Part shown: piece by piece, positions 12,863 through 27,717 of the stretch
How the letters are laid out: each line of letters starts with the position of its first letter
How positions within the stretch are numbered: the first letter of the stretch is position 1
Source of the DNA: Oscillospiraceae bacterium
GTDB lineage: Bacteria > Bacillota > Clostridia > UMGS1840 > HGM11507
Direction: 5' to 3'
Length of the DNA stretch: 64,000 bases
Assembly (NCBI GenBank): GCA_015068665.1
Contig: SVKB01000001.1
Location: 164,812 to 228,811, forward strand
Program-made: the position numbers and the translations under genes
Notes under the pieces: generated by a model
The model's input: only the letters and a program-made list of their open reading frames with translations
What the model was told of the DNA's origin: nothing
Databases searched by the model: none

Positions 12863-12917
12863 ATAAATGCAAAATATATAAAATTATATATAAAAAATTA
12901 AAAAGGAGATGTCTACT

Positions 12918-15900
12918 ATGAAAAGAATCTTATCAGTCTTCCTTGCACTGGCAGTAATTTTATGTTCGACATCAGTAGTTTTCGCATCGGAAGACACAAC
13001 CGCTACAGAAATTTCTTCTGCAGCACAATTTGCTGAAATAGCAAATAATCTTTCAGGCAGTTATAAGTTAACGGCTAATATCACTCTTGATAAGGGTATG
13101 AGCGAAACTTTTGCCGGAACATTTGACGGTAACGGATATACCATAAATCTTGGCGATAATGCAACACAGGGTGTATTCGCAACCGTAAATAATGCTACAA
13201 TTAAGAATCTTACCGTTAAAGGTACTGTCACTGCAACTGTAAACGCAGGTGCCGTTGCAGGTGCGGCTACAGGAACAGTTACCTTTATAAACTGTAAAAA
13301 CTTAGCAGACGTTATGGCAAAAACTGCAGGCGCAGGCTATGTTGGCGGTATCTTAGGTAACGGATACGACGGATGTACAGGTGTAACCTTTGAAAACTGT
13401 GTAAACTACGGTAAGGTTGATGTAGCCGGAAATACCAAAAATAACTCTAACGGCGGTATCGTAGGTGTTGGCAAAAATGCAACAATTGACACCTGTGTAA
13501 ACTACGGTGAAATTGTAGGACAAAATAAGTCCGGAGGTTTAATCGGATGGAACACAAATAAGCTTACAGTATCAAACAGTGCTAACTTTGGTGCTGTTAC
13601 CGTTTCTGTTTCAGGCAGAGAAGGTCAGGCAGGCGGTGCTGTCGGTTATTTAGGCGGCAGTGCAACCGGTTCTTTGGCGAATTTCTTTAATGGAGGTCAG
13701 GTTAACGGTGGCGTTGTAGGTGTATATGCAGGTTCACCTTCAATTTCAAACTGCGTAAATGTTGGTACAACCGTAAATGCAATGGTTGGCAGTGGTACAG
13801 CTGCAACAAGTGGCTGTTACTTCCTTGAAGGAACAGATGCTGACTCAACAGGCGCAACCTCTAAAACATCAGATGAAATCAAAGCACTTAATCTTACAGG
13901 CTTTGCCAAACAGGAAGGCTACGATTATCCTCTTCCTTCCGGTATAGAATATATTACAAAAGAAGATGCAGAAATCGTTAGAATTTCAACTGCAGACGGC
14001 TTTAAGAAAATAGCAAGTGATCTTTCCGGAGATTATAAGCTTACACAAAATATAGATTTAAGTAATTGCGGTTATGTTGCTATTTCTGATTTTACAGGAG
14101 TACTTGACGGTAACGGATATACCATAGATCTTGGAACTAATGCAACACAGGGTGTATTTGCATCCGTAAATAATGCTACAATTAAGAATCTTACTGTTAA
14201 AGGTACTGTCACCGCAACTGTAAACGCAGGTGCCGTTGCAGGTGCGGCTACAGGAACAGTTACCTTTATAAACTGTAAAAACTTAGCAGATGTTGTGGCA
14301 AAAACTGCAGGCGCAAGCTATGTTGGCGGTATCTTAGGTAACGGATACGACGGATGTACAGGCGTAACCTTTGAAAATTGTGTAAATTACGGTAAGGTTG
14401 ATGTAGCCGGAAATACCAAAAATAACTCTAACGGCGGTATCGTAGGTGTTGGCAGAAATGCAACAATTGACACCTGTGTAAACTACGGTGAAATTGTAGG
14501 ACAAAATAAGTCCGGAGGTTTAATCGGATGGAACACAAATAAGCTTACAGTATCAAACAGTGCTAACTTTGGTGCTGTTACCGTTTCTGTTTCAGGCAGA
14601 GAAGGTCAGGCAGGCGGTGCTGTCGGTTATCTAGGCGGCAGTGCAACCGGTTCTTTGGCGAATTTCTTTAATGGAGGTCAGGTTAACGGTGGCGTTGTAG
14701 GTGTATATGCAGGTTCACCTTCAATTTCAAACTGCGTAAATGTTGGTACAACTGTAAATGCAATGGTTGGCAGTGGTACAGCTGCAACAAGTGGCTGTTA
14801 CTTCCTTGCAGGTAAAGGTACTGACTCAACAGGCGCAACCTCTAAAACATCAGATGAAATCAAAGCACTTAATCTTACAGGCTATGCTAAACAGGAAGGC
14901 TACGATTATCCTCTTCCTTCCGGTATAGATTACATTTCAAAAGAGGAAGCAGCAGCTGTAAGAATTTCAACTTCAGATGACTTTAAGAATATTATAGCCA
15001 ATGACCTTTCAGGAAGCTATGTTCTTACCACAAATATAGATTTAAGCACCGGCTATACTGCAATCTCAGGCTTTACAGGAGTGCTTGACGGTAAAGGATA
15101 TACCGTAAATCTCGGAAACAATGCAACACAGGGTATATTTGCAACTGCAAGTAACTGTACTATTAAAAACCTTACTGTTAAGGGTACTATTAATGCAACT
15201 GCAAACACAGGTGCTTTTGTAGGAAAAGTAGTTGCTGTAGGCAGCACTAAGGCAAAGGCTACCTTTATTAACTGTAAAAACTACGCGAATATAAGCTCTG
15301 TATCAGCTGCAGGCTATGTGGGCGGTATCTTAGGAAACGGATATGACGGATGCGACGGTGCAACATTTAGTAATTGTATAAACTACGGTTCAATTTACCT
15401 TTGGGATAACTCCAACAACGTAGATGCCGGCGGTATGGTAGGCGTTGTAAGAAACGCAGTAGTTGAAAACTGTATGAACTACGGCAGACTTGACGGTAAA
15501 AGATATACCGGAGGTTTAATTGGTTGGAGTACCAATAAGCTTGAGATTTCAGACTGTGCTAACTTTGGTGCTGTTTATTCCAGATCATTCGGACGAGCAA
15601 GAGGTGGCGCTGTTGGAAACTTAGGCTCTGCTTCAACAGGTTATATAAAGGATTTCTTAAATGCAGGTCAGGCTACAAACGGTGTTGCAGGCTCTAAAGA
15701 TGATACTTACACACCATCTATTTCAATTTCTTACTGTGTAAACGTAGCAACAACCGATTACGCTGTAACAAATATCGTAAACGCAGTACCGACTGAATGT
15801 TACTGTCTTGAAGATAAAAACAATACAGGAAAAGACGACCCAACCGACACAACAATTAAAACCTCTGAAGAAATGAAAGAACTTAAAATAACAGGCTTCA

Positions 15901-16586
15901 CAGTACCGGAAGATATTTACGGTGTTGAATATCCTGTACCAAGTACTTTAACACTCACAACAAATGAAGTAGTAGTTACAGCTGCAGAGGGCGGTTCAGT
16001 TTCCCCTTCAGGTACAGTTAAAGTAAACTACGGAAGAAGTGTTAACTTTAGGGTTACAGCTTCGGAAGGATACTATGCAGATGATTGCTCATATAACGGT
16101 GCAGTTATTACACTTAACAATAATAATGTTTATACAACACCTGAAATTAAAGCTTCCGCAACCTTCGATGCTCAGTTTGCAAAATTAGAAGATGTTGATG
16201 TATCTGATGCGGTACATATGTACAGCCCGTACACATCCTCAAAGGAAGATACTGAACACTACGGTAATAACGGTTCGGTTATTACCTTTGCAAGAGCTCC
16301 TAAGGTTGGACCTGTTACTGTTACCGAATGCGGACTTTTAGTTGACGAAACAAACGGTATGACAGCTGATGAGCTTGTATATGGCGCTAAAGAAGTAAGA
16401 GTGCTTGCATTTGACCTTGAAACAAAGAAATTAACAGAAAACGGTCACTACGGTATACTTATATACAACAACAGCTATACTGAGTCTAAGACTTATAAGG
16501 TTCGCGCTTATGCAAAATACAGCAACGGAAAAATTGCTTACGGCGATTTATCTGAAATAGCTTTTGGTGCTATCAGTGCTCAGTAA
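12918..16586 (+). CDS. Secreted GLUG-repeat giant with InlB-like and Fn3-like C-terminus, 1222 aa
   Basis: ATG 12918 is preferred because AAGGAG (12903-12908) abuts the in-frame ATG at 12909. The protein has a signal peptide (~1-24), three ~325-residue GLUG units and a C-terminal pair. The pair is an InlB/bacterial-repeat domain ('GGSVSPSGTVKVNYGRSV', ~1020-1090) and a ~110-residue Fn3-like end domain ('VTECGLLVDETN', 'YGILIYNNSYT', 'YKVRAYAKY'). There is no SLH, LPXTG or stalk domain. Units 1 and 2 are nearly identical at DNA level with an exact in-frame period of 981 bases, so recombination could add or remove units. The C-terminal pair recurs in the 20040 and 48537 proteins. The 45-aa peptide gene follows within 30 bases. 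Confidence 0.85.
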   Translation: MKRILSVFLALAVILCSTSVVFASEDTTATEISSAAQFAEIANNLSGSYKLTANITLDKGMSETFAGTFDGNGYTINLGDNATQGVFATVNNATIKNLTVKGTVTATVNAGAVAGAATGTVTFINCKNLADVMAKTAGAGYVGGILGNGYDGCTGVTFENCVNYGKVDVAGNTKNNSNGGIVGVGKNATIDTCVNYGEIVGQNKSGGLIGWNTNKLTVSNSANFGAVTVSVSGREGQAGGAVGYLGGSATGSLANFFNGGQVNGGVVGVYAGSPSISNCVNVGTTVNAMVGSGTAATSGCYFLEGTDADSTGATSKTSDEIKALNLTGFAKQEGYDYPLPSGIEYITKEDAEIVRISTADGFKKIASDLSGDYKLTQNIDLSNCGYVAISDFTGVLDGNGYTIDLGTNATQGVFASVNNATIKNLTVKGTVTATVNAGAVAGAATGTVTFINCKNLADVVAKTAGASYVGGILGNGYDGCTGVTFENCVNYGKVDVAGNTKNNSNGGIVGVGRNATIDTCVNYGEIVGQNKSGGLIGWNTNKLTVSNSANFGAVTVSVSGREGQAGGAVGYLGGSATGSLANFFNGGQVNGGVVGVYAGSPSISNCVNVGTTVNAMVGSGTAATSGCYFLAGKGTDSTGATSKTSDEIKALNLTGYAKQEGYDYPLPSGIDYISKEEAAAVRISTSDDFKNIIANDLSGSYVLTTNIDLSTGYTAISGFTGVLDGKGYTVNLGNNATQGIFATASNCTIKNLTVKGTINATANTGAFVGKVVAVGSTKAKATFINCKNYANISSVSAAGYVGGILGNGYDGCDGATFSNCINYGSIYLWDNSNNVDAGGMVGVVRNAVVENCMNYGRLDGKRYTGGLIGWSTNKLEISDCANFGAVYSRSFGRARGGAVGNLGSASTGYIKDFLNAGQATNGVAGSKDDTYTPSISISYCVNVATTDYAVTNIVNAVPTECYCLEDKNNTGKDDPTDTTIKTSEEMKELKITGFTVPEDIYGVEYPVPSTLTLTTNEVVVTAAEGGSVSPSGTVKVNYGRSVNFRVTASEGYYADDCSYNGAVITLNNNNVYTTPEIKASATFDAQFAKLEDVDVSDAVHMYSPYTSSKEDTEHYGNNGSVITFARAPKVGPVTVTECGLLVDETNGMTADELVYGAKEVRVLAFDLETKKLTENGHYGILIYNNSYTESKTYKVRAYAKYSNGKIAYGDLSEIAFGAISAQ
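13160..14890 (+). repeat. Two near-identical in-frame repeat units (period 981 bases)
   Basis: The stretch from about 13160 to 13900 reappears about 981 bases later with only scattered changes; for example 'ataactctaacggcggta' starts at 13441 and again at 14422. The period is 327 codons, so loss or gain keeps frame. The third unit of the gene is clearly more diverged. Confidence 0.85.
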
Positions 16587-20039: not shown

Positions 20040-23000
20040 ATGAAAAGAATAATATCTGTAATAATTGCTTTTACAATGATACTTTCGCTTTTTTCCTCGA
20101 TAGCAGTTACAGCGGATGACAAAACAACTGATAATATAGTATACAGTGAAAATTTTAATAACTGTAATACCACGCTTCCTGATGGATTTAATCCGATGGC
20201 ATTTGCAAAAACAAGATGCTGGGTTCAGAATGAATATGCAGTTTCGGGAAAAGCATTATATATGTATGATGATTCATCAACAGATGCTACTATTTTGTAC
20301 GGACCTGCATTTGAGGTCAATCCGGGAGAATTCTATACGGCACAGGCACAGATGTATGTTCCTTACGGAACAGTAAGTTTGTATTTAAAATTTTACGATG
20401 CATCAGACAAAGAGATTCTTTCCTGGTATAGTGCAATCAGCGTAACAAGTGATTTTACGACTGCAACAATGGTAAATAAGGCACCTGACGATGCAGTAAG
20501 TGCAAGAGTATGCTATGCATCGGGAGCTGCATATACATGTAGGGCATATTATGATGATGTTGTAGTTTATGAGGGAATAGTGGAAGTTGATGACACTGTA
20601 ACTCTTGACCCACCTGTTCAAAAAGATGCGGTTAATGCAAAAATCGTAGAGCCTGATGGGAATAAACTTAAATATAACCCTTATAATGATAAGGGCGACA
20701 AGATGGGAGATTTTTCACATGTAGGATTTTATAAAGGCGAATTTGAAATTCCGGATTCAAAAAATCTTCCTGTTGCTGCGGTTGTTTCTCCATCTGCAGA
20801 TCCGAATGCCGATGATACTGCAAGAATCCAGCAGGTTATATATGATGTATATAATAATTCTTCCGATGATTCTTTTAAAGTTATTAAATTGAAAGCAGGA
20901 AGATACAACATAAATAAGACCGGCTTGTTTTTAAGACCCGGAATTATTTTATCCGGCGAAGGACAGGGACCCACCGGAACAATTCTTTATGCAAAAGACC
21001 CTGTTGTTCACAATGTTATAAAAGCATACGGCGGAGCTCAGGCAAAAACTTCTGATAATGTAAATATTTTAGATAATTACGTTAAAGCCGGAAGCAATCA
21101 GTTTACGGTAGAAAAGGGTAAGGGGGCAACCTTTAAGGCAGGAGATACTATCCATATCCATCATCACGGAACAGAAGAGTGGAGTAAGGCGATGGGTATG
21201 TGGGGTGTTACCAACTATGCAGGGGAGCTTACATACTGGAAAGATGGCGAATTCAATGTAGATATGAACAGAACTGTTAAAGAAGTAAACGGAGATACTA
21301 TAACAGTTGACTTTCCTTTCTTTGTTCCGATGGATAACACATACTCGGTTCCGTATGTATATAAAACATCGGAAGCGGCTAAGTGGAAGCATATAGGCAT
21401 TGAAAACTTGAGGCTTGAATCTTATTACAACGGCGTACCAACAGATAACGAACATGCAGAGAACGGAATATGTCTTTCGGGAGTTATAGACAGTTATATA
21501 AGAGATGTAAGTTTAAAACATTTCAGAATGGCAGGTATCTGGCTTGATAAAACAAGCAGCAGAGTAACAGTTAAAAACTGCTCAAGTCTGGACCCTGTTT
21601 CCACTTTTGAAGGTAACAGAAGATACGGATTTCGAACATCAGGATATCAGCAACTTGTTTCGGGATGCTATTCCTACGCAGGTCAGCTTGATTATAATAC
21701 AACAGGTAACTGTCCGGGGCCTGTAGTATTTAATGATTGTGTTTCCGATACCGGTTATAATCCGAGCGAAAATCACGGTTTCTTTGCACAGGGTACACTT
21801 TTTGACGGAATTTATTTTATATCCAATCAATACAGAGGATGTATTCAGTTTATCAACCGCGGTTACTGGGGAAACACTCAGTCTCACGGTTGGTCTGCGG
21901 CATCATCGGTAGCATGGAACTGCTTAAGCCCTGCAATTATCGGAAATAAACCGCCAATGACTTATCAGAATTTTATTGTAGGTATACATGGTTGGTATGA
22001 TGAAAAGTTTGCAGCCGAAAAAAAATCGCACCATGTAGAAACTGCAAAGCAATATTACAGAACAAGCGAGCAGTTAGCTCCTTTACCTGAAAACTTTGTA
22101 AACTATGAAAACAGCCCGATTTCCGGCGACTGTTATATAGAATCTCCAACAGCACCCGTTGAACCCCGTTCTCTATATAAGGCTCAGCTTGCCGAAAGAT
22201 TAACAGGCAACTTTAAAAATACAAAACCGAATGCTCCCGTTATTTCTTCTCCTCGTGGCGAAGATTTACTGGCAACTAATAATGTAAGTATAAAGGGTAT
22301 GTTTAGGAAGGGTGCCGAAAAGGTTACCATATATATTGATAATAAGCCTTATGAGGCAACACTTAATAATTCTGATTATACATTTATACTTGAATTAAGA
22401 TTAAACAATGGAGTGCATAAAATCCATGCAACCCAGACTATTGACGGTATTGAGAGTACAAAAAATGCCGACAGATTTATAACAGTTAATGAATCAAAAG
22501 GAAATTTTGATTATCTTGAAAGTAATTACGAATTTGAAAAAGTTCATCCTCTTATAAATTCGGATGTGATTTCTTATGATCAGCAGCAGAATAGTTTGTT
22601 AGCAGTAAAAGAAATATCTTCAGATACAGAGTTTTATAACATAGCCCAAAATATGGGTGGCAACTATAAACTAACAGCAGATATCACTCTTGATAAGGGG
22701 CTTTCAGGAAGCTTTTCGGGAACACTTGACGGTAATGGACACACCATCACTTTAGGAAATTCGGCAAGCCCTTCAGTATCAGGTGTTTTTGAATATATTG
22801 CTGCCGGTGCTGTAATTAAAAACTTAAAGGTTGACGGTGTGTTTACATCGGATAAAACCATAGGAGCCTTTGCAAACCGCATAAGCAGTGGTAAAGAAAC
22901 CAATGCACCCGTTTTATTTATTAACTGCACAAATTTTGCGGATGTTACCGTTAATGTGGATTCGAACGGTCAGTATATTGGCGGATTTGTAGGGCTGATT

Positions 23001-25265
23001 GGCGGAACAGGTCCTGTTGAATTCAGTAAATGCTCTAATTACGGTAATGTGTATACAACCTATACAGGCAGTTATAAAATAACAGGTGCAGGTGGATTTG
23101 CAGGTCATGGTAATAATGTAACTGCGGAATATTGTGTCAACTACGGTTCGGTTGATGCTTTGAATAATCAGAACAGGAGCGCAGGGGGTATCATAGGTAT
23201 TGCGGGTGTCAGACTGGACATTAAAAACTGTGCAAATTTCGGTTCCGTTGCAGCAAGATGTGACGGCTATGCAGGCGGCATTATAGGTAAACTGTTTACT
23301 GTTACTACCTCTGCAAACTTATTAAAATCTGCATCTATAGCAAACTGTCTTAATGCAGGTAAGCTTAACTCTCATTACAGTGGGGGAATATGTGGCGGAC
23401 GTACAACAGATGAGCAACTGCCATTTAGTGTTATTAAGAATTGTATAAATATTGGTTCTTCCAGTGCTGATACTAATACATACGCCATTTGTGCTAATGC
23501 GGTGGAAAGTGCTTATGCAGTTACCGGTTGTGCCACAAAGAAAAATGAAAATACAAGGCTTTTTTCAGCTGATGGAATTAAAAATTCGAATTTAGATGGT
23601 TTTACCAAGACTGACAGTTACGAATATCCTTTGCCCACAGGAATTTCCTATAATTTAAAAGCAGGGGTTATAAGAATTTCAACTTCGGCTGATTTTATGA
23701 ATATTAAGAATTACCCTTCCGGCAATTATAAGCTTATGGGGGATATAGATTTAAGTAATTGCGGTTATGTTGCAATTACGGGATTTTCAGGCGTGCTTAA
23801 CGGTAACGGATATACCGTAAATCTTGGAAACAGTGCAAAACAGGGTGTGTTTGCAACCGCAAGTAATTTTACAATTAAGAATCTTAATGTTAAGGGAAAT
23901 ATTAATGCCAATACAAAAACAGGTGCTTTTGTAGGCGATGCCGATGGATCAGCTTCCTTTATTAACTGTAAAAACTATGCTGATATAGCGTCTTTATCAG
24001 CTGCAGTTTATATGGGCGGTATCTTAGGCGACGGATATGATGACTGTACAGATGTAACCTTTAAAAACTGTATAAATTACGGTTCCATTGATACTTACAA
24101 CAATGCAATTTACGTTGATATTGGTGGTTTAGCAGGCGTTATAAGAAATGCAACGGTTGAAAACTCAATTAACTATGGAAAAATTAACGGTAACCGGTAT
24201 GCCGGAGGTTTAATCGGTTGGAGCACCAATAACCTTCAGTTATCAGACTGTGCTAACTTTGGCGGTGTTTATTCCAAATCTTACGGAAAAGCAAGAGGCG
24301 GAGCTGTCGGAAACTTAGGAAAGTCTTCAACAGGTTATATAACGAACTTCCTCAATGCAGGACAGTCTACCAATGGAGTTGCAGGAACTAAAGATGCTTC
24401 CTATAAAACAGCTCTTTCGGTTTCTTACTGTGTTAACACAGGAATAACTGATTATCCGATGATTAATATGCCGGGTGCCACAACTTCTGACTGTTACTTC
24501 CTTGAAGGCAAAGGTACTGACTCAACAGGTGCCACATCCAAAACTTCAGAAGAATTTAAAACACTTGAAATTGCAGGCTTTAAAGTACCGAAGGATATTT
24601 ACGGTTTAGAATATCCCGTACCAAGTGCCTTAACTCTTACAACAAATAATATAACAGTTACAGCGTCAGTTGGCGGAACTGTTTCTCCTTCGGGAACAGT
24701 TAAAGTATTATACGGAAGAAATGTAACCTTTAAGGTAACAGCCAACTCAGAATACTATGCGGATGACTGCTTATATAACGGTGCGGTAATTGCGCTTAAC
24801 AGCAATAATGCGTATACAACACCGGAAATTACAGCTCCCGCAACCTTTGATGCACAGTTTGCAAAATTAGAAGATGTTGATGTATCTGATGCGGTATATA
24901 TGTACAATCCATATATAACATCCAAAGAAGATACAGAGCATTACGGTGACAACGGCTCGGTTATTACATTTGCTAAAGCTGCAAAGGTTAACCCTGTTAC
25001 CGTTACTGAATGCGGACTTTTAGTTGACGAAACAAACGCTATGACAGCTGATGAGCTTGTATATGGCGCTAAAGAAGTAAGAGTGCTTGCATTTGACCTT
25101 GAAACAAAGAAATTAACAGAAAACGGTCAATACGGTATACTTATATACAACAACAGCTATACTGAGTCTAAGACCTATAAGGTTCGCGCCTATGCAAAAT
25201 ACAGCAACGGAAAAATTGCTTACGGTGATTTATATGAAATAGCTTTTGGTAACATTAAGGATTAG
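20040..25265 (+). CDS. Secreted beta-helix/GLUG chimeric giant, 1741 aa
   Basis: The signal peptide and residues to ~840 parallel the 1121-aa protein at 9497: CBM-like domain, pectin-lyase-type beta-helix with 'LSGEGQGPTGTILY', and Ig-like domain. Similarity stops after 'INSDVISYD', where the other protein enters its stalk domain. From ~850 this one carries two GLUG units (~850-1190 and ~1195-1530), then the InlB-like repeat ('GGTVSPSGTVKV') and the Fn3-like end domain of the 12918 protein. It is thus a fusion of the front of one neighbour with the back of another. The last ~270 bases are almost identical to the end of the 12918 gene. AAAAGGAG precedes the start. Probable role: surface or secreted glycan lyase-like protein; no catalytic residues are assigned. 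Confidence 0.87.
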   Translation: MKRIISVIIAFTMILSLFSSIAVTADDKTTDNIVYSENFNNCNTTLPDGFNPMAFAKTRCWVQNEYAVSGKALYMYDDSSTDATILYGPAFEVNPGEFYTAQAQMYVPYGTVSLYLKFYDASDKEILSWYSAISVTSDFTTATMVNKAPDDAVSARVCYASGAAYTCRAYYDDVVVYEGIVEVDDTVTLDPPVQKDAVNAKIVEPDGNKLKYNPYNDKGDKMGDFSHVGFYKGEFEIPDSKNLPVAAVVSPSADPNADDTARIQQVIYDVYNNSSDDSFKVIKLKAGRYNINKTGLFLRPGIILSGEGQGPTGTILYAKDPVVHNVIKAYGGAQAKTSDNVNILDNYVKAGSNQFTVEKGKGATFKAGDTIHIHHHGTEEWSKAMGMWGVTNYAGELTYWKDGEFNVDMNRTVKEVNGDTITVDFPFFVPMDNTYSVPYVYKTSEAAKWKHIGIENLRLESYYNGVPTDNEHAENGICLSGVIDSYIRDVSLKHFRMAGIWLDKTSSRVTVKNCSSLDPVSTFEGNRRYGFRTSGYQQLVSGCYSYAGQLDYNTTGNCPGPVVFNDCVSDTGYNPSENHGFFAQGTLFDGIYFISNQYRGCIQFINRGYWGNTQSHGWSAASSVAWNCLSPAIIGNKPPMTYQNFIVGIHGWYDEKFAAEKKSHHVETAKQYYRTSEQLAPLPENFVNYENSPISGDCYIESPTAPVEPRSLYKAQLAERLTGNFKNTKPNAPVISSPRGEDLLATNNVSIKGMFRKGAEKVTIYIDNKPYEATLNNSDYTFILELRLNNGVHKIHATQTIDGIESTKNADRFITVNESKGNFDYLESNYEFEKVHPLINSDVISYDQQQNSLLAVKEISSDTEFYNIAQNMGGNYKLTADITLDKGLSGSFSGTLDGNGHTITLGNSASPSVSGVFEYIAAGAVIKNLKVDGVFTSDKTIGAFANRISSGKETNAPVLFINCTNFADVTVNVDSNGQYIGGFVGLIGGTGPVEFSKCSNYGNVYTTYTGSYKITGAGGFAGHGNNVTAEYCVNYGSVDALNNQNRSAGGIIGIAGVRLDIKNCANFGSVAARCDGYAGGIIGKLFTVTTSANLLKSASIANCLNAGKLNSHYSGGICGGRTTDEQLPFSVIKNCINIGSSSADTNTYAICANAVESAYAVTGCATKKNENTRLFSADGIKNSNLDGFTKTDSYEYPLPTGISYNLKAGVIRISTSADFMNIKNYPSGNYKLMGDIDLSNCGYVAITGFSGVLNGNGYTVNLGNSAKQGVFATASNFTIKNLNVKGNINANTKTGAFVGDADGSASFINCKNYADIASLSAAVYMGGILGDGYDDCTDVTFKNCINYGSIDTYNNAIYVDIGGLAGVIRNATVENSINYGKINGNRYAGGLIGWSTNNLQLSDCANFGGVYSKSYGKARGGAVGNLGKSSTGYITNFLNAGQSTNGVAGTKDASYKTALSVSYCVNTGITDYPMINMPGATTSDCYFLEGKGTDSTGATSKTSEEFKTLEIAGFKVPKDIYGLEYPVPSALTLTTNNITVTASVGGTVSPSGTVKVLYGRNVTFKVTANSEYYADDCLYNGAVIALNSNNAYTTPEITAPATFDAQFAKLEDVDVSDAVYMYNPYITSKEDTEHYGDNGSVITFAKAAKVNPVTVTECGLLVDETNAMTADELVYGAKEVRVLAFDLETKKLTENGQYGILIYNNSYTESKTYKVRAYAKYSNGKIAYGDLYEIAFGNIKD

Positions 25266-25266
25266 T

Positions 25267-25310
25267 AATAAACATGAGCGGATGCCGATGGCATTCGCTT
25301 ATGTTTATTT
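25267..25310. terminator. Bidirectional terminator
   Basis: Arms 25267-25286 and 25290-25309 form a 20-bp stem with two G-T pairs and a three-base loop. A/T-rich flanks lie on both sides, between the + strand giant gene and the - strand AraC remnant. Confidence 0.8.
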
Positions 25311-25585
25311 TACATAAATTTAATTTTGTGATTCTTTCTGTAATTCAAAGGACTTTGTCCTGTTGTTACATGAAATTCCTCCTTGCCCGGGCAAAGCAGT
25401 GCCTCGCCGTCAAGAACATATAACAGTGAATCGGAGGTCCTGTTAAAATCCTTTTTGTGTACCCGGTTTGCCTGCTTTGGCATAATGGAATAGGAATTTA
25501 AAACTGAAGTAATTTTTTTTATAAAAATATCACACCGGTTAAAACCGCCGTTTTGTCCGCTCACTTTCAGCATCTCCCTATTCAA
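25310..25585 (-). pseudogene. AraC regulator remnant with internal deletion, 91 codons
   Basis: The N-terminal part ('DFNRTSDSLLYVLDGEALL', 'GKEEFHVTTGQ') reads as the cupin sensing domain of an AraC protein. It then passes directly into 'TTGQSPLNYRKNHK', which is the very end of an AraC helix-turn-helix domain. About 170-190 residues expected between them are absent without a frameshift. The sequence coding TTGQ fits both domain contexts, so a deletion between short matching stretches is likely (inference). Only a TTG or poorly placed ATG is available as start, and no good ribosome site is seen. It cannot bind DNA as an AraC protein. Confidence 0.7.
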
Positions 25586-25718
25586 TCAGCTTTTATTTAA
25601 TTGTATATAAAAAAGATAGTCTGTCAATTTCAGTTTTGAAATATATAAAAAAATGTTAAAATAAATATTTACTTTTTTAACTTTAAATACTACAATAATT
25701 ATAAAGTTTGATATACAA

Positions 25719-25776
25719 GGGACAAAAAGCCTTCCCCTCAAGGGGAAGCCTTTGAAAAAACATATTTTTTTGTCCC
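25719..25776. repeat. 58-base nested palindrome (small inverted-repeat element)
   Basis: Outer arms GGGACAAAAA (25719-25728) and TTTTTGTCCC (25767-25776) enclose a second hairpin centred on CTTCCCCT/AGGGGAAG at about 25731-25748. The sequence after the right arm (GTCCCTAACTTGA, 25772 onward) recurs at 26657-26669, overlapping the stop codon of the DUF218 gene. It looks like a miniature transposon or its footprint; no transposase is present. Confidence 0.6.
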
Positions 25777-25792
25777 TAACTTGATAAAAACA

Positions 25793-26020
25793 TATGCGGT
25801 GCATAGCACCACAGCTAAATTCGCCTACGGCGAGCTAAATTGAACAAGTTCAGCTAAATTGCCTGTGGCAGCTAAATGTGTTTCGCACGCTTTTGGCGAA
25901 TTTAATTTAGCTACTCCAAAGGAGTTATTTAGCTATGAAGCGAAGCGGTATAATTTAGCTTTGCAACTTGTTGTAAAATTTAGCTTAAATGGTTGGCATC
26001 TAAATTATACAGTCTTTATA
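25793..26020. repeat. Hairpin-array repeat element, copy A
   Basis: Short hairpins alternate with AGCTAAATT spacers in the left half (25813, 25833, 25852, 25870) and with the complementary AATTTAGCT in the right half (25904, 25926, 25952, 25977). The whole is therefore one large palindrome with small hairpins along both arms. It ends in a 26-base end sequence at 25995-26020 containing CATCTAAATTATACAGTC. Copy B lies at 27492-27717. It occupies the gap before the DUF218 gene, whose ribosome site starts right after it. Confidence 0.85.
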
Positions 26021-26036
26021 TAAAGGATATGGAATA

Positions 26037-26657
26037 ATGTTAAAGATATATGGGGTAAAAATGCAGAAGAAGAAAAAAATGTGCGTGATTTTTTTAGTAA
26101 TGTTAATTGTTCTCATAGTATATATTTTTGCTAATGCTTTTGCTATATACAATTACGGCAATATAGATGAAAAGCAAAAAAGCGACGTTGCCATTATATT
26201 GGGAGCTGCAACGGATACTAACGGTGTTTCTCCAGTTTTTGCAGAAAGGATTAATCATGGAATTTGGCTATATAATAATGGTTATGTTGATTATCTTTTA
26301 TTTACCGGTGGCAAGGGAGAGGGAGCAAAAGTTTCTGATGCGTATAAAGCAAAAGAATATGCAATGTTAAAAGGAGTACCCGAAGACATAATTTTCTTGG
26401 AGGAACAATCTAAAATTACTCAGGAAAACCTTAAATATTCAATAGAGATTATGGAAGATAATGGCTTAAACACGTGCATTATAGTAAGTGACCCTCTGCA
26501 TATGAAACGTGCTATGCTAATGGCTAAGGACTATGGTCTAAATGCTTTTTCATCTCCAACGGTAACCACAAGATATCGTACCTGGAAAACAAAATTACCG
26601 TTTTTATTGCGAGAAGAGTTCTTTTATATAGGATATAAGATTTACAGATTATTTTAG
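26037..26657 (+). CDS. DUF218/YdcF-like membrane-anchored protein, 206 aa
   Basis: One N-terminal membrane segment (~residues 14-36, 'MCVIFLVMLIVLIVYIFANAF') is followed by a DUF218 domain: 'VAIILGAATDTNGVSPVFAERI', 'YLLFTGGKGEG', 'SEAYKAKEYA'-like 'SDAYKAKEYAMLKGVPEDII' and 'TCIIVSDPLHMKRAMLMAK'. This family (SanA, YdcF, ElyC) is linked to envelope and cell-wall precursor metabolism. AAAGGA lies nine bases before the ATG, immediately after repeat copy A. The stop codon lies inside the second copy of the GTCCCTAACTTGA repeat, so the gene is framed by repeats and may have arrived with them. Base composition is more AT-rich than the giant genes. Confidence 0.85.
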   Translation: MLKIYGVKMQKKKKMCVIFLVMLIVLIVYIFANAFAIYNYGNIDEKQKSDVAIILGAATDTNGVSPVFAERINHGIWLYNNGYVDYLLFTGGKGEGAKVSDAYKAKEYAMLKGVPEDIIFLEEQSKITQENLKYSIEIMEDNGLNTCIIVSDPLHMKRAMLMAKDYGLNAFSSPTVTTRYRTWKTKLPFLLREEFFYIGYKIYRLF

Positions 26658-26721
26658 TCCCTAACTTGACAAAATCATAAAAAGATTGTCGAAAAATGGC
26701 GTGAGGAGAAAGGAAATAAAT

Positions 26722-27474
26722 ATGAATAAAGAAATTACAAAGATTATCAATAAGGTTATACTTGCGGAGCGGACGGTTCGTATTAAGCTTTTGGGCGATT
26801 CTATTACTCATGGTGTAGGAGGAACAGGGTTTGAACAGAACGGCGAAACCATTGTTAAGGGGTTTGCCCGTAATAAGGACGGATACTGTTGGGCAAAGCA
26901 GTTTAAGGAGTATATGGAGTCGCAATACGATTGTACTGTGACCAATAATGCATGCACAGGCACAAATATAGAGTTTATAATTGATAATTTTGAACAGCTT
27001 GTTGATATTGATGATGATATTGTTATATGTACTATAGGAACGAATAACCGTCATCAGCACATTGCCGATGCTCCCAAACACACTAAGCGTGAGCATATGG
27101 AAATTTTCTACGGAAATATCATTAAATTATATGATAAATTTAAAGAAATGGGAAAAGATGTGATTTTTGTTGCCAATATCCCTGCTTCGGCTGAAAATGA
27201 AAAAGACAAGGCGGATTCCTGGAGAATTTTCCATATGAACGATGTAAACGATCTTTATATGAAGGCGTCAACTGTTTGCGGGGTTCCGTTTATAAGTATG
27301 TATTCGCAGTTTCTGGAATATTGTGAGTTGAAGGAAATAGCTGTTGATTCCCTTCTTGCAGATGGGTTACACCCCAACGATAAAGGGTATGATGTTATGT
27401 TCAAACTTTTATTAAAAGAGCTTGGTATCGGGAGAAAGGTCTGTGAAACATCGCCCAAAAAGATAGGCATCTAA
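26722..27474 (+). CDS. SGNH/GDSL-type hydrolase, 250 aa
   Basis: ATG 26722 is chosen over the TTG frame opening at 26686 because GGAGAAAGG lies just before it. The block I motif 'KLLGDSITHGVG' puts the nucleophile at Ser27, 'ICTIGTNNRH' supplies the block III Asn, and 'ADGLHPNDKGY' near residue 225 gives the Asp/His pair. These proteins are usually carbohydrate or lipid esterases; acetyl removal from glycans is the likely role here. There is no signal peptide. The last two codons and stop fall inside a 26-base sequence that also ends both hairpin-array repeats, so the native C-terminus may have been replaced when the repeat arrived (inference). Confidence 0.88.
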   Translation: MNKEITKIINKVILAERTVRIKLLGDSITHGVGGTGFEQNGETIVKGFARNKDGYCWAKQFKEYMESQYDCTVTNNACTGTNIEFIIDNFEQLVDIDDDIVICTIGTNNRHQHIADAPKHTKREHMEIFYGNIIKLYDKFKEMGKDVIFVANIPASAENEKDKADSWRIFHMNDVNDLYMKASTVCGVPFISMYSQFLEYCELKEIAVDSLLADGLHPNDKGYDVMFKLLLKELGIGRKVCETSPKKIGI

Positions 27475-27717
27475 ATTATACAGTCTTTATATGCGGTGCT
27501 TTAGCACCGCAGCTAAATTCGCTAATGCGAGCTAAATTGAGTAAACTCAGCTAAATTGCCTGTGGCAGCTAAATGTGCTTCGCACGCTTTTGGCGAATTT
27601 AATTTAGCTACTCCAAAGGAGTAATTTAGCTATGGAGCGAAGCGGAATAATTTAGCTTTGCAACTTGTTGCAAAATTTAGCTTAAATGGTTGACATCTAA
27701 ATTATACAGTCTTTATA
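27466..27717. repeat. Hairpin-array repeat element, copy B, with flanking 26-base direct repeats
   Basis: The core (27492-27691) matches copy A and is bracketed by 26-base direct repeats at 27466-27491 and 27692-27717 that share CATCTAAATTATACAGTC. Compared with copy A, several stems have changed on both sides while still pairing: GAGT/ACTC replaces GAAC/GTTC, a CGC/GCG stem replaces CGCC/GGCG, and GCGGTGC/GCACCGC is fully paired here. The AGCTAAATT spacers are unchanged. The right end runs into the ribosome site of the DegT gene. Confidence 0.87.

Follow-up and report, generated by a model that had tools for sequence, protein, structure and literature searches.

Covarying hairpin arrays with fixed heptameric spacers in ruminant-gut Clostridia and their linkage to genes of the 23S rRNA-intervening sequence protein family

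Introduction

Among the described systems closest to the repeats reported here is the intervening sequence (IVS) of the Coxiella burnetii 23S rRNA, with heptameric repeats (GACAGAT) immediately upstream of the S23 gene (PMC4990558). For decades, no function has been assigned to intervening sequences or their S23/IVP proteins (PMC4990558). We analyzed a window of 64,000 nucleotides, meaning the whole stretch of DNA under study, from an Oscillospiraceae bacterium (contig SVKB01000001.1), which carries two copies of a hairpin array. Like the IVS of C. burnetii (PMC4990558), the array family is associated with proteins of the PF05635 family, has heptameric repeats directly before the gene, has complementary ends that fold together, and shows a sporadic, horizontally acquired distribution. 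In contrast to 23S rRNA IVSs, the window copies and most of their relatives are intergenic rather than located in rRNA, the heptamers alternate with hairpins, many of the copies in a genome are without the gene, and the spacer dialects covary with the protein.

With regard to the features that characterize an IVS, the window copies are not inserted in an rRNA helix (H9, H25, or H45) and do not encode S23/IVP, although relatives with the same array do. Their left and right spacer arms are complementary and can form an extended stem, and their RNA folding was better than that of dinucleotide shuffles (z -3.1 and -4.1); heptameric repeats before an IVP gene are found in their relatives. Both copies have the make-up of the array family, with four left spacers, a centre, and four right spacers, with hairpins at fixed positions, and a cognate-dialect IVP is present in the genome. 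By inference, the hairpin array may be an array of heptamers with hairpins added between its units.

Other systems share some of these characters. REP/BIME sequences with TnpA_REP (RAYT) are also intergenic palindromes found in many copies and presumed to move in trans, but the unit here has eight sites arrayed with at least seven hairpins, its partner is IVP, and Y1_Tnp does not track array presence. MITEs are likewise short, gene-less dispersed copies of a longer element; unlike them, the arrays have ends that are not inverted repeats, no DDE transposase partner was found, and no target duplication was established. Group IIC introns prefer sites beside terminator hairpins, as does a subset of arrays found beside tRNA terminators, but no reverse transcriptase or ribozyme core was seen in the array, and there was no Rfam match. 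Our literature searches (spacer sequence, hairpin repeats in Clostridia, and four-helix-bundle/IVP elements) found no description of such arrays, and the terms 'hairpin', 'intervening', and 'four helix bundle' were absent from the main text of a microbiome structured-RNA survey (PMC8040213).

Results

Structure of the two window copies

The first-pass annotation, made from the sequence alone, had proposed two repeat copies, each with spacers and hairpins on the left arm and inverse spacers and hairpins on the right arm, and this held. The copies (25793-26020 and 27492-27717) were 93% identical to each other and exhibited the same fixed layout, h0-L-h1-L-h2-L-h3-L-h4-centre-R-h5-R-h6-R-h7-R-right end, where L is GCTAAAT and R is ATTTAGC (Table 1). 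The left arm was characterized by AGCTAAAT spacers with short inverted repeats in between, the right arm by ATTTAGCT spacers with longer inverted repeats, and the centre ended with GGCGAATTTA. In most hairpins a T-A closing pair adjoins the spacer, so that the repeat period corresponds to spacer plus hairpin. The first spacer of arrays is directly preceded by a hairpin, at the array start.

All eight spacers were identical between the two copies. The same annotation had claimed that the stem bases of several stems differ together while spacers are unchanged; this was confirmed for h0, h1 (TCGCCTACGGCGA and TCGCTAATGCGA in copies 1 and 2, respectively), and h2 (TGAACAAGTTCA and TGAGTAAACTCA), in which pairing was kept despite the differences, but changes in h5, h6, and h7 were one-sided. 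Hairpin h4 differed by one base beside the loop.

Table 1. Features of the two array copies and of their flanks (positions in the window).
Feature	Position	Strand	Sequence or basis
'A' repeat abutting copy 1 on the left	25767-25792	+	TTTTTGTCCCTAACTTGATAAAAACA; repeat family D4
Copy 1 leading hairpin h0	25793-25813	+	TATGCGGTGC-ATA-GCACCACA; sequence
Copy 1 left arm	25814-25877	+	GCTAAAT spacers at 25814-25820, 25834-25840, 25853-25859, 25871-25877
Copy 1 left-arm hairpins	h1 25821-25833, h2 25841-25852, h3 25860-25870	+	
Copy 1 centre	25878-25904	+	Hairpin h4 GTGTTTCGCAC + GCTTTTGGCGAATTTA
Copy 1 right arm	25905-25984	+	ATTTAGC spacers at 25905-25911, 25927-25933, 25953-25959, 25978-25984
Copy 1 right-arm hairpins	h5 25912-25926, h6 25934-25952 (G.A mismatches), h7 25960-25977	+	
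Copy 1 right-end motif	25993-26020	+	TTGGCATCTAAATTATACAGTCTTTATA; conserved end, also solitary in other genomes
'A' repeat joined straight to D segment, without array	26652-26700	+	D segment TAAAAAGATTGTCGAAAAATGG; possible empty site (inferred)
Right-end motif abutting copy 2 on the left	27464-27491	+	Repeat family D2; a relic, or the end of an adjacent element
Copy 2 leading hairpin h0	27492-27511	+	TGCGGTGC-TTTA-GCACCGCA; sequence
Copy 2 left arm	27512-27574	+	Four GCTAAAT spacers, starts 27512, 27531, 27550, 27568
Copy 2 left-arm hairpins	within 27512-27574	+	h1 TCGCTAATGCGA, h2 TGAGTAAACTCA, h3 TGCCTGTGGCA
Copy 2 centre	27575-27601	+	h4 GTGCTTCGCAC + GCTTTTGGCGAATTTA
Copy 2 right arm	27602-27681	+	Four ATTTAGC spacers, starts 27602, 27624, 27650, 27675; h5, h6, h7
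Copy 2 right-end motif	27690-27717	+	TTGACATCTAAATTATACAGTCTTTATA; sequence, repeat comparison

Rfam covariance models gave nothing over either copy at E ≤ 1 and no family match at gathering score; the sole match up to E = 1 was a chance match at 25249-25326, outside both copies. The right-end motif was considered as a promoter and rejected, its TATAAA spacing being 20 nt and its conservation too high for a promoter alone.

The copies lie between protein genes (DUF218, GDSL lipase, and DegT aminotransferase in the surroundings), and no IVP gene was found in the window. An orthologous empty site or a target-site duplication was sought via the neighbouring genes and none was established; orthologous empty sites could not be established because these genes lack close relatives, those of the DUF218 and DegT aminotransferase genes in nearby genomes being only about 30% identical. 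Within the window, the junction of the 'A' repeat with the D segment may represent an empty site, as inferred from comparison with array copies C36 and L163/L164; about 10 matches to the 'A' repeat were found in the genome, the majority beside arrays. The array ends (TATGCGG... and ...TCTTTATA) have no inverted-repeat relation, and a TA/TATA shared at the junctions may be a duplication. Directly to the left of copy 1, at 25709-25792, lies another short repeat, distinct from the array, whose ends are inverted (GTTTGATATACAAGGGACAAAAAGCC ... TTTTTTTGTCCCTAACTTGATAAAAAC); similar ends also flank other repeats in relatives (L021, L032, L042). Elsewhere in the window, 24804-25250 and 16122-16568 match over 447 bp with 91% identity, near the 3' ends of the large open reading frames 20040-25265 and 12909-16586, and likely correspond to a shared C-terminal domain.

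Distribution and dispersal of the arrays

The genome of origin (2.2 Mb, 48 contigs) contained about 15 copies, as well as solitary right ends. A copy was matched in 12 out of 60 related genomes (E ≤ 0.001), in some by the right end only. Scanning with a family marker from the array centre (GCGAATTTAATTTAGCT) returned at least 108 stretches, nearly all from Clostridia, Ruminococcaceae or Oscillospiraceae assemblies and mostly from ruminant guts; matches in Neisseriaceae and Actinomycetota assemblies (L088 and L093) had no array and were chance matches. The doubled right spacer AATTTAGCT-N8..20-AATTTAGCT was present in 28 of the 341 genomes of the class, with a patchy distribution over many families, versus 2 for the reversed-pattern control. 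A total of 116 distinct arrays was parsed, mostly from ruminant-gut Clostridia, with 81 of those exhibiting exactly three inter-spacer hairpins on each arm. A scan of viral contigs returned five candidate contigs.

Copies with 97-99% identity were located in unrelated flanks, other repeats excepted; the repeat therefore moves or is moved. Dispersal has occurred both between unrelated flanks and between bacterial families.

Covariation of the stems

Covariation was determined on 33 non-redundant arrays and 36 stem positions. Watson-Crick pairs accounted for 91.6% of the cells, versus 52% when the 3' letters were redealt (maximum of 500 shuffles, 56%). Two-sided changes were detected at 33 of the 36 stem positions, with 348 two-sided cells versus 93 in shuffles (maximum 113), and all four pair types were present at many stem positions. 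Sliding the partner by 1-3 bases lowered pairing to 19-31%. The shuffle control is blind to relatedness among arrays, which is nevertheless unlikely to have caused the covariation, given how wide the gap is, the filtering for redundancy, and the outcome of the slide control. Between representative arrays of the GCTAAAT dialect, only 1.5% of hairpins were identical and the spacers were constant, so shared ancestry alone does not maintain the spacers. Since the stems covary strongly and the spacers are fixed, folding is selected: pairing, and hence shape, is under selection in these arrays.

The first-pass annotation had inferred selection of the folded shape from compensatory change and had proposed a covariation test on many copies against chance. 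This test was clearly passed, and the claim is supported by the wider array set, not by the window pair alone. Indeed, other copies in the same genome carry both versions of h1 and of h2, so that copying between copies could explain the window pair, and two copies alone are no proof. Template switching, which it had named as an alternative, is not sufficient. When hairpins at the same position differed at exactly two stem bases, these were both sides of one pair in 29 cases out of 47. One-sided intermediates exist (17 G.T/T.G versus 10 A.C/C.A), and a complete stepwise path, A-T > G.T > G-C, is present in h1. Tandem G.A/A.G mismatches are kept in right-arm h6 and h7 across differing sequences; palindrome correction is thus insufficient, as it would erase them.

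The annotation had left the folded strand as RNA or single-stranded DNA, and the choice between the two is not decided. Arrays started 20-27 bp after a sigma-A-type promoter-like sequence with 17-bp spacing in 15 cases out of 114 (background 1.5%), and in 11 out of 113 the start lay 35-43 bp beyond the 3' end of a tRNA; the strand was the same every time. From this strand-specific placement, the + strand is likely transcribed at those sites. Some tRNA-linked arrays (L026, L034, L065, L149, L150) exhibited a terminator-like h0 (AAAAAAGACAGATTTCGACAAAGAAATCTGTCTTTTTTT), variable but with pairing kept. Right-arm mismatches favoured the + strand (GT 20 : AC 3; GA 34 : CT 3), with GNA/GNNA loops, and the energy model gave hairpins with tandem G.A a better fold for + strand RNA than for the opposite strand. 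In the dialects examined, left-arm loops were mirrored (TNC, which is GNA on the other strand), with GT 4 : AC 7. A purely + strand RNA fold was rejected, as the left-arm TNC loops and mismatches do not fit. A pure DNA dyad was also rejected, since the placement relative to promoters and tRNAs depends on the strand, and since one type of tandem G.A hairpin (TATCGAACGCAGTGAGATA) folded in the energy model as + strand RNA only. Neither simple model accounts for both arms.

Linkage of arrays to IVP genes

In several genomes, a short gene (MAESIMLDKAKDFAVEII...) was located 20-48 nt downstream of the array. It was found to encode a 23S rRNA-intervening sequence protein (IVP; PF05635, E = 3.5e-29), from a four-helix-bundle family in which the structures of relatives 2rld and 2gsc have been solved. 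IVP genes following the same array as that of the window copies were identified at L163, L164, L038, and other loci. Among the seven IVP genes of the genome of origin, two (G000 C21 and C35) have a GCTAAAT-dialect array upstream, one has an array with TCGATATG spacers, one has a AGTGGTATT/AGTGATATT array, one is enclosed by a pair of opposed TCGATATG-type arms, and the remaining two have other inverted repeats on their flanks.

Across the class, IVP genes were found in 77 of 245 genomes. An exact detector identified an array in 11 of 40 IVP windows and in none of 141 others taken from the same contigs. With a detector that tolerates one mismatch, 37 of the 92 IVP upstream windows exceeded all 465 control windows (0/465; Fisher 8e-33), and 55 of the 92 IVP genes had no strict array. 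At the genome level, an IVP gene was present in 19 of the 21 genomes with AGCTAAAT arrays versus 58 of the 224 without them (p = 6e-9). Arrays are physically linked to IVP genes. Some array-bearing genomes had no detected IVP (G015, G137), possibly as a result of decay or incomplete assembly. Flanking repeats with a 7-nt period, often inverted, were frequent on both sides of IVP genes without arrays (lag-7 signal above control).

At L028, L029, L114, and L146, a different gene in each genome followed the array and the IVP gene (or its start codon region); by eye, these genes seemed to be pyrophosphatase-like, GIY-YIG-like, and Nudix-like, and they might be cargo. The right-end motif follows the downstream gene in L146 and L141. 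At L227 (G222), an IVP gene was apparently located inside the 23S rRNA gene with TTAGAAG-type heptamers before it, which, read by eye, may be a classical IVS in Clostridia.

Co-diversification of spacers and IVP

About a dozen spacer dialects were observed among the arrays upstream of IVP genes, with similar array geometry in all; relative to the gene, left spacers were located about 230-130 bases upstream and right spacers about 140-20 bases upstream. Spacers of the TCGATATG dialect formed 182 adjacent pairs in the genome of origin (control, 0), in arrays that were mostly single-arm among the copies read. In the same genome (L330-L342), a hairpin array of the CAATTCATG dialect and runs of GCATTCTGCACTCTGAATT heptamers frequently came after these arrays.

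IVP identity was correlated with spacer similarity over 37 IVP-array pairs (Mantel r = 0.48; 0 of 2000 permutations). Spacers were identical in all 66 comparisons with IVP identity of at least 80%, cross-family pairs included. At 60-80% identity most comparisons had identical spacers, and below 60% the share was 5-7%. From one dialect to another, left and right spacers change jointly over distances of up to about 200 nt. Spacer and IVP have co-diversified. The Mantel test is no proof of contact, since linked genes share ancestry. Linkage alone, however, cannot hold spacers constant amid hairpin turnover, and IVP is therefore inferred to read the spacer. The spacers are thus likely IVP recognition sites, with binding inferred from covariation only and without experiment.

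Discussion

The explanation we favour, with moderate confidence, is one that lay beyond the sight of the first-pass annotation: the repeats would be the IVP-less form of a protein-encoding element family. As no IVP gene is present in the window, we read its copies as non-autonomous, dispersed derivatives of IVP mobile elements, and this preference is for the reading taken jointly with recognition of spacers by IVP. The full element would consist of a hairpin array followed by an IVP gene, and full copies at other sites in the genome would supply IVP in trans. The 7-9 nt spacers would be sequence-specific sites for the cognate PF05635 protein; the hairpins between them, selected for shape rather than sequence, would hold the eight sites at set distances in the folded strand, in which left and right spacers could pair to give a chain of junctions. 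Once bound to the folded array, IVP would either tag the element for movement or protect its transcript and process it. IVP-spacer binding, its service to mobility, and the movement of IVP-less copies in trans are all inferred, and the lack of any known DNA cutting or joining activity in IVP counts against the model.

A regulatory RNA remains possible as an alternative. Arrays would then be transcribed leaders or stand-alone RNAs, bound by IVP for regulation of genes including its own; dispersed copies would bring other genes under control, and movement would be incidental. This is supported by the 15 of 114 arrays starting 20-27 bp past a sigma-A-type promoter (1.5% in background), the position of the array in the 5' leader of the IVP gene at several loci, the + strand bias of right-arm mismatches (GT 20 : AC 3), and the better folding of G.A-containing hairpins as + strand RNA. 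However, arrays show overall no preferred orientation relative to the downstream gene (45 versus 38), little transcription is expected for the 11 arrays after a tRNA gene and terminator-like hairpin, the mirrored left-arm loops and mismatches favour the other strand, and in some IVP loci (G199, G130; by eye) a promoter lies between array and gene. We consider it unlikely that the arrays are REP/BIME-like DNA repeats that bind a host factor or organise the chromosome, with cruciform-forming sites recognised by a host protein and an HUH (Y1) transposase as the agent of their spread. They are palindromic, intergenic, and multi-copy, one Y1_Tnp gene is present in the genome of origin, and the mirrored loops fit dyad-symmetric DNA; but Y1_Tnp was absent from three of the eight array-bearing genomes tested (G001, G219, G288), no REP-type single hairpin was found, and the conserved adjacent gene encodes IVP, not Y1.

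Two further explanations seem highly improbable. Without any selection on shape, template switching or gene conversion, acting within and between copies, might maintain perfect palindromes; hairpin variants are indeed common to copies in one genome, stems are short, and triloops are common. Against this stand the one-sided intermediates, G.T excess, and stepwise paths, the tandem G.A mismatches conserved in h6 and h7, the joint change of left and right spacers up to about 200 nt apart, and the fixed order and similar lengths of the hairpins. The arrays might also belong to a type III-style defence or toxin-antitoxin pair of repeat RNA and adjacent protein, given a repeat array beside a small protein gene and the accessory genes sometimes found after it (Nudix-like or GIY-YIG-like, by eye). 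Yet the four-helix-bundle family of IVP (solved 2rld, 2gsc) has no known enzyme activity, most arrays lack a protein gene, and the adjacent protein, which is PF05635 and matches 2rld, does not have an RNase toxin fold.

The mobile-element reading could be extended to a widespread class in which a small four-helix-bundle protein without known catalytic domain reads 7-nt sites on a folded hairpin lattice and drives the movement of both gene-bearing and gene-less copies, rRNA intervening sequences being a special case; we lean slightly against this bolder version. What is new here is the link between arrays and IVP genes, which likely provides a candidate recognition partner for the enigmatic IVP family, and the arrays themselves show selection on nucleic-acid shape with unusual clarity. 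The matched changes in spacer and protein make the dialect specificity of IVP directly and cheaply testable. If each IVP binds its own dialect only, the family would offer a ready-made set of orthogonal pairs of proteins and sites, and the repeats would explain a large unannotated share of intergenic DNA in ruminant-gut Clostridia.
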